Assembly (NCBI GenBank): GCA_023954635.1 | Contig: JAGSHI010000016.1 | Coordinates: forward strand, 1-42,330 | Direction: 5' to 3' | From: Bacteriovoracaceae bacterium | GTDB taxonomy: Bacteria; Bdellovibrionota; Bacteriovoracia; Bacteriovoracales; Bacteriovoracaceae | DNA length: 42,330 nucleotides | Part shown: piece after piece, positions 14,851 to 20,084 of the stretch | Layout: each line of letters opens with the position of its first letter | Numbering within the stretch: the stretch's first letter is position 1 | Translations under genes and position numbers: made by a program | The notes under the pieces: generated by a model | Database searches by the model: none | Told to the model about the DNA's origin: nothing | The model's input: only the letters and a program-made list of their open reading frames with translations

Positions 14851-14893
14851 CTTTATCTGAGTGATCAAATCAAAAATACCCAAGGAACGGTTC

Positions 14894-15970
14894 ATGTTTT
14901 ATCACCTCCTCTACCCGTTAAGTCAGGATTACGGTGCCCTTAATATTTTTAGGTATATTACCTTTCGGTCTTCTGTATCATTTTTAATTGCTACTCTCGT
15001 TTCTATTTGGTGGGGAAAATATTTTATTCTCTTCATGAAAAGAAAACAGTTTGGGCAAGTTGTTAGAGATGACGGACCAGAATCTCACTTAAAAAAGGCC
15101 GGAACGCCTACTATGGGTGGACTTTTCATCCTTGGGTCAATTTTGGTGGCGCTACTAATCAGCGGAAACTTTTTTTCCATCCCTCTTTTAATAACAATCG
15201 GCGTCACCTTTAGCTTTTTTCTTCTAGGCTTCCTCGATGATTACTTAAAAGTCTTGAAGAAAAATACTGATGGGATTTCAGCTAAAGGAAAACTTCTTTG
15301 GCAGTTCTCAACCGCTATCGGCGCATCACTTTTGATGACTCACTACGATATAGTAGACACATTTTTATACTTACCTTTCATGAAAGGCCCAGTGATTGAT
15401 CTTGGCGGCTTTTATCATCTCTTTGTGGCCATTGTAATTGTTGGATCGAGCAACGCAGTTAATCTCACGGATGGTTTAGATGGCCTGGCCATCGGTCCAA
15501 TTATAACAAGTGCCGCATCGCTCGGGATTATGACATATGTTGCAGGGCATAGAGAAATTTCTGGCTATCTCTTTATTCCATATATCGAAAGCGCAGGGGA
15601 GCTCACAATATTTGCTGCGGCCATAATAGGTGCAGGGGTAGGCTTTTTGTGGTACAACTCGTATCCGGCTCAGATATTTATGGGTGATGTAGGTTCCCTC
15701 TCTTTGGGGGGTACACTTGGTACTATAGCTGTTTTAACAAAAAACGAAGTTCTTTTTGTCATTATAGGCGGCATATTTGTTACGGAAGCTGTTTCAGTTA
15801 TCCTGCAAGTTGTTTCATATAAAACGAGAAAGAAGCGCGTTTTTAAAATGGCCCCAATTCATCACCACTTTGAGCTCATGGGATGGCCAGAACCGAAAGT
15901 GATCGTAAGATTTTGGATCATAAGTATTTTTCTAGCCATTTTCGCTATAGCTACATTAAAGATGCGTTAG
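14894..15970 (+). CDS. mraY: Phospho-MurNAc-pentapeptide transferase MraY
   Basis: This integral membrane enzyme moves phospho-MurNAc-pentapeptide onto undecaprenyl phosphate, making lipid I. The ATG at 14894 has AAGGAA 7 nt upstream and gives the usual MFYHLLYPLSQDYGALNIFRYITFR opening; a GTG at 14861 is less likely. Conserved loops DDGPESHLKKAGTPTMGG, NAVNLTDGLDGLA, FMGDVGSLSLGG and PIHHHFE are present, with about ten hydrophobic helices. Length 358 aa is typical. Confidence 0.96.
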   Translation: MFYHLLYPLSQDYGALNIFRYITFRSSVSFLIATLVSIWWGKYFILFMKRKQFGQVVRDDGPESHLKKAGTPTMGGLFILGSILVALLISGNFFSIPLLITIGVTFSFFLLGFLDDYLKVLKKNTDGISAKGKLLWQFSTAIGASLLMTHYDIVDTFLYLPFMKGPVIDLGGFYHLFVAIVIVGSSNAVNLTDGLDGLAIGPIITSAASLGIMTYVAGHREISGYLFIPYIESAGELTIFAAAIIGAGVGFLWYNSYPAQIFMGDVGSLSLGGTLGTIAVLTKNEVLFVIIGGIFVTEAVSVILQVVSYKTRKKRVFKMAPIHHHFELMGWPEPKVIVRFWIISIFLAIFAIATLKMR

Positions 15971-15982
15971 GAGTAGTCGTTG

Positions 15983-17365
15983 ATGGAAAGGTTTAAGAAC
16001 AAAAAAATTCTCATTGTTGGTGTTGGAAGAACTGGGTTTAAACTCATCAACTTTTTCAATCAACTAGAATGTCACATCAGAGTTACCGACATAAAGCCTA
16101 TCTTTGATTTAAATAAGGCCGTTAAAAAACTTAAAAAAATTAAACCAGCTCTTGAGATGTCTTTTGGTGAACACCGTGAAGAAGATTTCCTAGATGCTGA
16201 TGTTGTTGTTTATTCAAGCTCAGTTAATCCAGACATGGCTCAACTTGAGCTGGCGAGATCAAACGGTAAAGAAGTTTATTCTGAATTTGCCTTAGCCAAC
16301 CTCCTTTGTCGAAAGCCGATCATAGCTGTCTGTGGGTCTTTTGGTAGAACAACAGTGGCGCACATGATTGGGTTTACATTAAAACTTGATGGTAAAAATG
16401 TATTTGTAGGTGGAACAAGCGAAACTCCATTTATTGAATATGCCATGCTTCAAAATAAAGACGAAGTTGACTATGTTGTCGTTGAAGTTTCTGCTTCACA
16501 AATGAGAGCGGTTCAAAACTTTCATCCAAAGCTTGTTGTCTTTACAAATATCAGTGAGAAGTACTCTGATAGCCACTTCAAGTCTGTTGGCGAGTATATT
16601 GAAACAAAACTAAGCATTATTAAGACTCTTTCTCCTGACGATACTCTCGTTGTAAGTTTTGATTCGTTAGCAAATAATACATTTTTTAGAAATGCTAACT
16701 GCCAAACATATTGGTACTCAAGAAAGAGCTTCATGAGCATGGGTGTAATGAATGAGATTCAAGGAACACATTTCCATGACAGAAGAATTCACAGTAACAT
16801 CAATTATCACTCTGAATTCAAAGTAAACAAAATGAGAATTATCGGTCAAAGTAACAGGGAAAATCTTCTTGCTGCTACGACTGCTTGTAAGGCCCTTGAG
16901 GTCTCTGATAGCGCCATTCAGACTTGTATTGAAAAGTTTCCAGGAATTCCACATAGACTTGAATTTCTTATGGAAAAAAATGGTGTCTGTTTTTACAATG
17001 ATTCAAAAGCAGAAACTATGGATCAAATGATTAGTAGTATTAAAAGTTTTAAAAACCCACCAATTCTAATTGCTGGTGGTAAAGATATTGAAGAAGTTGA
17101 ATACGAACCATATACAGATGAAATTATCAGACACGCTCGTGTTTTAGTTTTGGTTGGTGAATCTAAAGAAAGAATGAACAGGGCCCTAGGCGACCATGAT
17201 CAAACTTTTATTGTTGGTTCATTTGAAGAGTCTGTACTTCTTGCTTATCAAAAATCAAGAACGGGAGATACAATCCTTCTTTCACCAGGAAATCCAAGTT
17301 CTGACTTCTTTAGAGATTTTGAAGAAAGAGGAAACTACTTCAAGAAGTTAGTCTACCAACTATAG
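15983..17365 (+). CDS. murD: MurD-family UDP-MurNAc-L-Ala:D-Glu ligase with an altered ATP/metal site
   Basis: Placement between mraY and ftsW and the motifs TDIKP, PHRLEF, FYNDSKAET, AGGKD and LLSPGNPSSDFFRDFEERG identify MurD. The nucleotide site is unusual. The P-loop reads GSFGRTT (residues 118-124), with Arg122 in place of the invariant lysine and Phe for Asn. The metal-site motif usually written DHxD is KYSD (193-196), with Tyr194 in place of the histidine. The usual GNIG is GTSE at Thr145. The carbamylated lysine (Lys209) and EVSASQ glutamate are kept. The frame is intact at 460 aa. AGGAG lies 9 nt before the ATG at 15983; a TTG directly before it is the only alternative. Confidence 0.82.
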   Translation: MERFKNKKILIVGVGRTGFKLINFFNQLECHIRVTDIKPIFDLNKAVKKLKKIKPALEMSFGEHREEDFLDADVVVYSSSVNPDMAQLELARSNGKEVYSEFALANLLCRKPIIAVCGSFGRTTVAHMIGFTLKLDGKNVFVGGTSETPFIEYAMLQNKDEVDYVVVEVSASQMRAVQNFHPKLVVFTNISEKYSDSHFKSVGEYIETKLSIIKTLSPDDTLVVSFDSLANNTFFRNANCQTYWYSRKSFMSMGVMNEIQGTHFHDRRIHSNINYHSEFKVNKMRIIGQSNRENLLAATTACKALEVSDSAIQTCIEKFPGIPHRLEFLMEKNGVCFYNDSKAETMDQMISSIKSFKNPPILIAGGKDIEEVEYEPYTDEIIRHARVLVLVGESKERMNRALGDHDQTFIVGSFEESVLLAYQKSRTGDTILLSPGNPSSDFFRDFEERGNYFKKLVYQL

Positions 17366-17411: not shown

Positions 17412-18653
17412 ATGGGAAATCAGGAAGAGCTTGAATCAATAATTAAAAAGTTTTTAACATTTATTGGCATAATAATTGTTGTTGGGGCCATCATGGTTCT
17501 AAGCTCATCGTATATATATTCTAGAGAAATTCACTCAAATGCATCCCATATCTTTTTTAAGCAATTAACGTTCATTGGTATAGGCCTTGTCGGATGTTTT
17601 ATTCTTTATCGAATGAAGTTTAACTTTTGGAGAAAGTTGGTTTTCAGTGGTCATGTTTTTATTGTCATACTGATGGTTCTAACCTTGATTCCAGGCTTAA
17701 AACACACGGTAAACGGTGCAAGCAGATGGATAAACATGGGGCCCATTGGTGTTCAACCAGGTGAACTGCTAAAATACTCAATCCTTTTGTATTCCATAAA
17801 TTACTTTGATCAATTTATGACCATGACAAAAAATGAAAAAATCTCAAAAACATTATGGCTTCTCTCCCCTTTAGTTGTATTAGCGGTACAGCCGGACTTT
17901 GGAACTTTTTCTATATGTTGTTTGGTTATGGCATTCACATGTTTTTTGAGTAATTTTCCAAGAAAATATTTTTATAGTTCAATTCCTGTCGGAATAATTA
18001 TTGCTGGAGCACTTTTAGTTAGTCAGCCTTATAGAGTCAGAAGGCTTTTTGCATTCTTAGACCCGTGGAAAAACCCAAGAGGCAGTGGCTTTCAAATTAT
18101 TCAGTCCCTTTTTGGCTTTGCCAATGGTGGAATAATTGGAGAGGGGCTTGGGAATAGTAATGAAAAATTATTTTATCTTCCTGAAGCACATAATGACTTC
18201 ATTTTCAGTGTGATTGGAGAAGAGCTTGGCTTTTTTGGTGTGATCTTACTTGTTGGTCTATTTTTGGGATTTATTTATTATGGACTAAAACTAGCTACAA
18301 AAATTGAAGACCGTTTTGGCTCTATGATTGTGAGTTCAGTTGTATTTACTATCGGCCTTCAAGCATTTTTAAATATGGGTGTCGTTTTGGGGCTTCTTCC
18401 AACCAAGGGTTTAAATCTCCCCTTCGTGAGTTACGGGGGAACTTCCATGGTAGTTAATTGCATGGCGATTGGGATAATCCTATCAATTTATCGCTTCCAA
18501 CACAGACAAAGCGCTCCGAGTCATCAACCCTTCGATCATTTCCCATCTGATCGATCTTCGTACTATAATGGCCAACGATCCGGCCAGCAAAGCACCTTCG
18601 GGCAACGAACCGAACCTACGCAAGATGAGCAACAAAACTTTCCTGGCTTTTAA
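17412..18653 (+). CDS. ftsW: Septal peptidoglycan glycosyltransferase FtsW
   Basis: SEDS-family polymerase that builds septal glycan strands from lipid II together with FtsI. About ten hydrophobic helices are visible, with NGASRWINMGPIGVQPGELLK, QPDFGT, RVRRLFAFLDPW, GLGNSNEKLFYLPEAHNDFIFSVIGEE and LPFVSYGGTSM, all SEDS signatures. A hydrophilic C-terminal tail of about 50 residues, rich in Gln, Ser and His, follows the last helix and would lie in the cytoplasm. It is longer than usual and could bind FtsZ or another partner; this is inference. No clear ribosome binding site is seen. Confidence 0.95.
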   Translation: MGNQEELESIIKKFLTFIGIIIVVGAIMVLSSSYIYSREIHSNASHIFFKQLTFIGIGLVGCFILYRMKFNFWRKLVFSGHVFIVILMVLTLIPGLKHTVNGASRWINMGPIGVQPGELLKYSILLYSINYFDQFMTMTKNEKISKTLWLLSPLVVLAVQPDFGTFSICCLVMAFTCFLSNFPRKYFYSSIPVGIIIAGALLVSQPYRVRRLFAFLDPWKNPRGSGFQIIQSLFGFANGGIIGEGLGNSNEKLFYLPEAHNDFIFSVIGEELGFFGVILLVGLFLGFIYYGLKLATKIEDRFGSMIVSSVVFTIGLQAFLNMGVVLGLLPTKGLNLPFVSYGGTSMVVNCMAIGIILSIYRFQHRQSAPSHQPFDHFPSDRSSYYNGQRSGQQSTFGQRTEPTQDEQQNFPGF

Positions 18654-18683
18654 TTAACTTCATGGCCACCAAGGCCTAAGACG

Positions 18684-20084
18684 TTGGAGCTGAATTTGTT
18701 AACCGCTAGAAGTGATGTTCATGTACATTTTATAGGAATAGGTGGAATTGGAATGAGCGGTATTGCAGAAATATTGCTTGCTCTTGGTTATCAAGTTTCG
18801 GGGTCAGATTGCTCGGCCTCTGCCACTGTAGAAAAGCTTCGTGGAATGGGCGCTGAAGTATTTATTGGGCATAAAAAAGAAAATGTGAAAGATGCAACTG
18901 TCCTTGTATACAGTTCTGCCATTAGAGAAAGTAACCCTGAAATAGTTGAAGCAAAAGAAAAGCGAATCCCAATTATGAGAAGAGCAGAAATGCTTGCAGA
19001 ACTCATGAGACTTAAAAAAGGGATTGCCATTGCTGGAACTCATGGGAAAACAACTACGACAAGTTTACTTGCGACGATATTACAAGAGAGTAAGTATGAG
19101 CCCACATATATAATTGGTGGGATTGTAGATAACCTAAAAGGCCATGCAAAAGTTGGGTCAGGTGAATACCTTATTGCAGAGGCAGATGAATCTGACGGTT
19201 CTTTCTTGCTCTTAAACCCCATCATGTCTGTTATTACCAATATCGATAATGATCATCTAGATCACTATGGAACAGAAGAAAATTTACATGCTTCATTTTT
19301 AGAATTTGCAAATAAAATTCCATTCTATGGGCTATGCTCTTTAAATTATCACGATGAAAATATTAAAAGTCTTTTTAAGGAAATGAAAAAGCCTTGGGTA
19401 ACTTTTGGTATCTCAGAGATAGAAAAAGGTGCTGATTTTGAGGCTCGAAATATAAAGTATGTGGGAACAAAGTCCGTTTTCGATTTATATTATAAAGACG
19501 AAAAGAAAGTTGAAATTACATTAGCCATACCTGGTGAGCATAATGTTTTAAATGCACTGGGAGCAATATCTATTGCTTATAATATGGGTCTATCATTTGA
19601 AAAGATTGCTAATTCAATTAGTAAATTTAATGGAGTCGGTCGAAGGTTTCAGACATTATTTGAAAATGAAAAGTCGCAGATAGTTGATGATTATGGTCAC
19701 CATCCCACTGAAATTAAATCGACGTTAAAGGCCGCTAGAAGCTGTTTTCCAGACAAAAAGTTGATCGTATTTTTCGAACCTCATAGGTACACAAGAACAA
19801 AAGATTGTTGGAATGAGTTTCTTCATTGCTTCAACTATGCAGACGAAGTCTTTTTAAATCCTATCTACCCTGCTAGCGAAGACCCAATTGGGGGAATATC
19901 TTCAGAAAGGCTAGCTAAAGATATCAATACACTTCATCCAGAACTTGTTAAACTCATAAAAGATGAAAAACATATGTTTAACTCTTTAGATACACTAGTT
20001 TTAGAAGAATCAGTTATCGTAACACTTGGTGCCGGGTCGATTGGTAAAAGAATTAGAGAATGGGTCAGCAAACAAAAGTCTTAG
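18684..20084 (+). CDS. murC: UDP-N-acetylmuramate:L-alanine ligase MurC
   Basis: MurC attaches the first stem residue, L-alanine. FIGIGGIGMSGIAEIL, GSDCSAS, the P-loop IAGTHGKTTTTSL, EADESDGSFL, ITNIDNDHLDHYG and DDYGHHPTEIKSTL are canonical. The start is a TTG: 18684 is listed, but TTG at 18696 has GGAG at 18686-18689 with better spacing and cannot be excluded. murG, which normally sits between ftsW and murC, is missing; only 30 nt separate the two genes. murB overlaps the end by 25 nt. Confidence 0.95.
   Translation: MELNLLTARSDVHVHFIGIGGIGMSGIAEILLALGYQVSGSDCSASATVEKLRGMGAEVFIGHKKENVKDATVLVYSSAIRESNPEIVEAKEKRIPIMRRAEMLAELMRLKKGIAIAGTHGKTTTTSLLATILQESKYEPTYIIGGIVDNLKGHAKVGSGEYLIAEADESDGSFLLLNPIMSVITNIDNDHLDHYGTEENLHASFLEFANKIPFYGLCSLNYHDENIKSLFKEMKKPWVTFGISEIEKGADFEARNIKYVGTKSVFDLYYKDEKKVEITLAIPGEHNVLNALGAISIAYNMGLSFEKIANSISKFNGVGRRFQTLFENEKSQIVDDYGHHPTEIKSTLKAARSCFPDKKLIVFFEPHRYTRTKDCWNEFLHCFNYADEVFLNPIYPASEDPIGGISSERLAKDINTLHPELVKLIKDEKHMFNSLDTLVLEESVIVTLGAGSIGKRIREWVSKQKS

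Follow-up and report, generated by a model that had tools for sequence, protein, structure and literature searches.

MurD (UDP-N-acetylmuramoyl-L-alanine--D-glutamate ligase, TIGR01087) is known from textbooks as an essential enzyme and serves as a drug target. We analysed a homologue encoded in a 42,330-nucleotide stretch of a Bacteriovoracaceae bacterium (assembly GCA_023954635.1, contig JAGSHI010000016.1, positions 1 to 42,330; hereafter the window), where it lies between mraY and ftsW in the division and cell wall (dcw) cluster. The closest described systems are enzymes. MurD2 of Xanthomonas adds L-Glu, works with the epimerase MurL and is active, and organisms with MurD2/MurL have been reported to lack D-Glu formation (PMC8788868). 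MurT of the MurT/GatD amidotransferase is a Mur-ligase homologue, also an enzyme, with a job that is not a step of stem-peptide ligation (PMC6085368). No description of two murD copies, of pseudoenzyme Mur ligases or of a Bdellovibrio murD was found in the literature searched, whose scope left out most subscription journals.

Compared with MurD, the operon protein of the window has in common the fold, the three domains, the dcw position between mraY and ftsW, the descent and the residues on the ADP/hinge side, but it is without the P-loop Lys, the Asn of GNIG, the Mg-binding His, the UDP-MurNAc-L-Ala (UMA) loop and the D-Glu subsite; it adds a fixed segment at residues 240–289, and the genome has a second, intact MurD. 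It resembles MurD2 in being a MurD homologue with changed residues, while the catalytic apparatus that MurD2 keeps has been lost. It matches MurT weakly, is full-length and MurD-like, and no GatD-like gene was noticed alongside. We consider it probable (roughly 0.72) that the second MurD does the ligation and that the operon protein has been maintained as a Mur-ligase pseudoenzyme with a non-catalytic function. The features of the operon gene are as follows.

15983..17365, plus strand: operon MurD homologue (putative pseudo-MurD), 460 amino acids, between mraY and ftsW
16334..16354, plus strand: degenerate P-loop GSFGRTT, residues 118–124; codon of Arg122 at 16346–16348
16412..16423, plus strand: GTSE, residues 144–147, replacing GNIG; Thr145 corresponds to Asn138 of E. 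coli
16559..16570, plus strand: KYSD, residues 193–196, replacing DHxD; Tyr194 corresponds to the Mg-binding His183
16607..16609, plus strand: Lys209, the counterpart of carbamylated Lys198 in E. coli MurD, retained in this copy
16700..16849, plus strand: residues 240–289, newly fixed segment YWYSRKSF...GTHFH..RIHSNI..HSEF
16952..17014, plus strand: retained ATP/hinge side, HRLEF (Arg325) and NDSKAE (Asp340, Lys342)

The open reading frame and its alignment to E. coli MurD (taken from NC_000913) confirmed GSFGRTT, GTSE and KYSD as described in the original prediction, with Arg122 at the P-loop Lys, Thr145 at the Asn of GNIG, Tyr194 at the Mg-binding His and Lys209 at the carbamylated Lys; in addition, Glu344 replaces the D-Glu-binding Thr321. 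Because the alignments agreed and Tyr194 and Lys209 are separated by 15 residues as in E. coli MurD, the catalytic residues are substituted rather than displaced. The alignment is thus secure, as had been claimed, a shift of residues by misalignment is ruled out, and a displaced motif with the canonical Lys kept elsewhere was not seen in it. The operon protein is MurD by descent and fold: it scored 272.6 bits against TIGR01087, above the murD equivalog cut-off of 211.95, and its AlphaFold2 model (mean predicted local distance difference test score 81.6, predicted template modelling score 0.78, low confidence at residues 266–278) found MurD as the best match in a structure search (template modelling score of ~0.67 to 3lk7), with the top 33 PDB matches all being MurD.

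To describe the substitutions across Bacteriovoracaceae, we used 33 genomes and 80 named records (Bacteriovorax, Halobacteriovorax and unnamed Bacteriovoracaceae), partly overlapping, which gave 113 operon copies. A competent ligase carries the P-loop pattern GxxGK(T/S) and the Mg-binding His; in the operon copies the P-loop Lys was Arg in 113/113, and His183 was absent from every copy (Y57 N20 F19 V7 M4 T4 R1 P1). The position of Asn138 was T109 S3 N1, and that of the carbamylated Lys198 was Lys in 73/113 and A, S, C or Q in the other 40. The D-Glu subsite (E. coli D182, T321, K348, S415 and L416) was not conserved, with K/N/R/T at D182, Glu at T321 in 104/113, K348 lost, S60 A46 G7 at S415 and T/S at L416, and the UMA loop was changed from SPG to S-S/A-S/A. 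Glu157, Asn268, Asn271, Arg302, Asp317 and Lys319 (E. coli numbers) were retained with few exceptions. Taken together, the copies have preserved the ADP/hinge side, while the phosphate/metal side, the D-Glu subsite and the UMA loop have been altered or have disappeared.

These counts rule out a sequencing error, chance or a one-genome oddity, in agreement with the original prediction that a single error could not account for the changes. Its emphasis on Phe120 was not borne out, since this position varies across the copies (Y42 F26 H19 and others), and its statement that the other ligases of the cluster keep all of these residues held for the Lys and the His, whereas MurC (GTHGKTT) and MurF (SHLE) deviate. 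The Thr preceding the P-loop is Cys in 113/113 copies (Cys117, 16331–16333), a newly fixed residue, and a cluster of conserved His residues is also present (His263, His265, His270 and His276, 16769–16810); together, these residues could form a putative metal site.

A whole-genome search, which the original prediction had proposed, found a second MurD of 430 amino acids outside the dcw cluster (genome G000, contig C3:43056-44345; L056:4554-5846, minus strand). It carries GTNGKTT, GGNIG, SSFQLE, the Mg-binding His, the carbamylated Lys198 and NDSKST, and it scored 295.6 bits against TIGR01087, above the same cut-off. The catalytic residues were kept in all 32 second copies of the family that cover these positions, and two TIGR01087 matches were present in 45/47 family genomes that are at least 95% complete. 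In genome G002, an exception, the match to the second copy stops exactly at a contig end, and we therefore rejected it as a genome without a second MurD. In the tree, the second copies form one clade (Shimodaira–Hasegawa-like approximate likelihood ratio test, SH-aLRT, 99) and the family operon copies another (SH-aLRT 100), the latter nested in the operon-MurD clade of the phylum (SH-aLRT 88). The neighbourhood of the second copy is partly conserved across the family.

Only six Mur_ligase_M proteins are present in the 98%-complete assembly (MurC, MurE, MurF, the two MurDs and an Mpl-like protein), and there is therefore no third MurD candidate. Since its catalytic residues are intact and no third candidate exists, we infer that the second copy performs the ligation. 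This strongly supports the option, raised in the original prediction, that the operon protein is no longer active as a ligase and that D-Glu is added by another enzyme. Three of the four MurD2 markers (Xanthomonas E197, R358, P433 and F435), namely the Arg, the Pro and the Phe, were found in the second copy and not in the window gene. At the fourth, the second copy has N, S or T instead of Glu, and the glutamate racemase gene murI is present in the genome, so that the second copy does not fit the MurD2 pattern; the three markers may serve as a lead on Glu stereochemistry, weakened by murI.

Several minor observations concern the same searches. The Mpl-like ligase (G000:C67:35518-36057, L006) reached 304 bits with the mpl model, whose cut-off is 388.7. 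FolC proteins usually carry a Mur_ligase_M domain, and no FolC was among the Mur_ligase_M matches in the whole G000 genome. A short contig of another genome (G013 C33; L088:918-3158), which may be foreign to that metagenome-assembled genome (MAG), encodes a MurD fragment followed by a 746-amino-acid fusion of glutamate racemase and a MurC-like ligase. An 818-amino-acid frame in G212 was merely an open frame read upstream, with no recognised fusion, and the apparent natural knock-out of the operon copy in G208 was a stretch masked as N.

Constraint on the operon copy exceeds that on the real ligases, a result that goes beyond the original prediction, as do the inverted conservation and the parallel erosion described below. 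It was the most conserved of seven dcw proteins compared, with a median identity to the window of 75.5% (58 loci), followed by MraY (71.3), MurC (56.1), FtsW (49.9), MurB (47.6), MurF (40.2) and MurE (39.7). The median ratio of nonsynonymous to synonymous substitution rates (dN/dS; Nei-Gojobori, 14 pairs, rough values because dS was often near saturation) was 0.024 for operon MurD, compared with 0.022 for FtsW, 0.029 for MraY, 0.037 for MurC, 0.103 for MurF and 0.119 for MurE. The operon copy was the more similar of the two MurDs in 465/465 genome pairs (64.6% vs 36.0% pairwise identity), and tip lengths in the tree indicate that the second copy evolves several times faster.

The distribution of this constraint along the protein is inverted. 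In the operon copy, the central ATP domain had the lowest mean pairwise identity (59.8%, against 70.9 for the N domain, 70.9 for the C domain and 76.5 for segment 240–289), while in the second copy it had the highest (43.8%, against 30.7, 36.2 and 22.0, respectively). Segment 240–289, which varies among true MurDs and is often shortened in them, reached 26.5% in single-copy MurDs. At 32 positions in total, the operon copy has a fixed residue that occurs in less than 10% of canonical MurDs. To judge from these alignments, the inverted profile is the pattern of a protein that would be under selection for a function other than catalysis.

We evaluated whether the operon protein could still be an active ligase, as a MurD or on another substrate, by means of Arg122 and a reconstructed metal site. 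The overall fold and the score above the murD cut-off agree with this explanation, as do E168, T/S123, N291, N294, R325, D340 and K342 (numbering of the operon protein), which are nearly invariant in the operon copies. However, none of the eight residues found in place of the Mg-binding His is fixed, the carbamylated Lys is lost in 40/113 copies, the DHxD region varies freely, the residues for D-Glu are gone, the catalytic domain is the least conserved part of the protein, and an intact MurD is encoded elsewhere in the genome; an active enzyme with an altered site would have to compensate for several catalytic losses at once. We consider this explanation unlikely. The new way of binding ATP offered as the other option in the original prediction is disfavoured, with the UMA loop, Asn138, His183 and the D-Glu subsite (T321 to Glu, K348 lost) also gone and the carbamylated Lys gone in a third of the copies.

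A second alternative is that the operon copy binds the second MurD as a pseudoenzyme subunit and tunes it allosterically in a hetero-oligomer, and is not a scaffold for MraY, FtsW or MurC. Pseudoenzyme partners that tune active enzymes are known in other enzyme families, and the joint occurrence of both copies in 45/47 genomes would suit such a pair. Against it, Mur ligases are usually monomers, and the several-fold faster evolution of the second copy is unlike that of a tightly matched obligate pair, which makes this explanation improbable. The weakest alternative sees the operon copy as a decaying pseudogene that persists only because it couples the translation of mraY and ftsW. It could draw on the lost catalytic residues and on the tight spacing of the operon (19 bases to mraY as the median gap), but it is already contradicted by the constraint data and is barely credible, since the frame is full-length in all 80 named loci, dN/dS is ~0.02 and conservation is the highest of the dcw proteins compared, where decay would give drift.

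According to the favoured explanation, in which the operon protein is a pseudoenzyme and the second MurD the ligase, the operon gene is a vertical descendant of the phylum's dcw murD that would no longer serve as the Glu-adding enzyme in Bacteriovoracaceae, and the second MurD would ligate UDP-MurNAc-L-Ala and Glu. The operon protein keeps the MurD fold and the ADP/hinge-side residues, with the phosphate/metal residues and most UMA and D-Glu contacts gone. Purifying selection on it is very strong and would maintain it for a non-catalytic job. This job would most likely be to scaffold or regulate the machinery for cytoplasmic precursors encoded around it (MraY, FtsW, MurC and others). Nucleotide binding through the retained residues may gate this role, and segment 240–289 is a candidate partner surface. 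Such a role would fit a MurD that is freed from chemistry yet held between mraY and ftsW. A cytoplasmic complex in which Mur ligases join MreB, MraY and MurG has been reported (review PMC4929429).

To place the operon copy in the phylum, we compared it across Bdellovibrionota families, as the original prediction had suggested. Loss of the P-loop Lys and of the Mg-binding His was fixed in Bacteriovoracaceae, and all six positions scored were intact in the copies examined of the single-MurD families f3, f4, f5, f8, f10, f11, f12, f13 and f23, the single-copy status of f5, f10 and f13 being based on one search alone. Five families have a second MurD (f1, f6, f7, f15 and f20), and in each of them the operon copy was eroded, at differing residues: f1 had lost the P-loop Lys, Asn138 and His183; f6 (Bdellovibrio-type, one genome of which we take to be B. 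exovorus) had lost Asn138, and in one genome also Lys319; f7 had lost Glu157, Lys198 and Lys319; f20 had lost Asn138 and Lys198; and f15 had two MurDs, the operon one (C4) being eroded at the GNIG and SSFQ motifs. The operon copies of f6 and f15 may also be inactive. In f7 (L093, L094), the second MurD adjoins murF outside the dcw cluster, which retains the eroded murD; this position next to murF is consistent with a functioning enzyme of the pathway. A second MurD in G177 (f8) was rejected as a contig-end fragment of a Patescibacteria-like type (GTKGKGTT), probably foreign, and second matches in f11, f18 and f19 fell below the MurD cut-off and were assigned to other Mur ligases such as MurC.

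Several points weigh against the explanation that we favour. Glu168, Arg325, Asp340 and Lys342 are retained, and the operon protein may thus carry out some nucleotide chemistry. Genome G024 (95% complete) shows the operon copy only, the second MurD not being found in it. The association between a second copy and erosion is complete, but it comprises about five families and two independent, well-supported contrasts on the tree, which are too few for a significant test. The family counts mix drafts and MAGs, and the scaffold role is drawn from operon position and conservation.

We tentatively suggest, at somewhat less than even odds, that MurD has a conserved non-catalytic role in the Bdellovibrionota dcw cell-wall machinery, which is normally masked by its enzyme activity and is exposed once a second MurD takes over the chemistry, the Bacteriovoracaceae operon MurD being a dedicated pseudoenzyme scaffold or nucleotide sensor. 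A whole predator family (relatives of Bacteriovorax and Halobacteriovorax) carries, in the textbook place, a MurD by curated model that very probably cannot catalyse the reaction. Nature would here have separated the enzyme role of a Mur ligase from a suspected non-catalytic one, which is thereby directly testable, and work on these predators, from annotation and metabolic models to inhibitor studies, would point at the wrong gene.

The neighbouring genes of the operon copy in the window are the following.

14861..15970, plus strand: mraY, upstream neighbour
17412..18653, plus strand: ftsW, downstream neighbour
18684..20084, plus strand: murC, intact comparison ligase with GTHGKTT and DHLD

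The end of mraY and the start of operon murD are 12 bases apart in the window, and a Shine-Dalgarno-like GGAG is found at 15970–15973, 9 bases 5' of the ATG. Across the family loci, mraY lies directly upstream in 79/80 and ftsW directly downstream in 72/80. The murG gene is missing from its usual place between ftsW and murC (window positions 17412–20084), and a MurG-like gene is present on contig C42, with a score of 238 bits, just under the TIGR01133 cut-off of 250.
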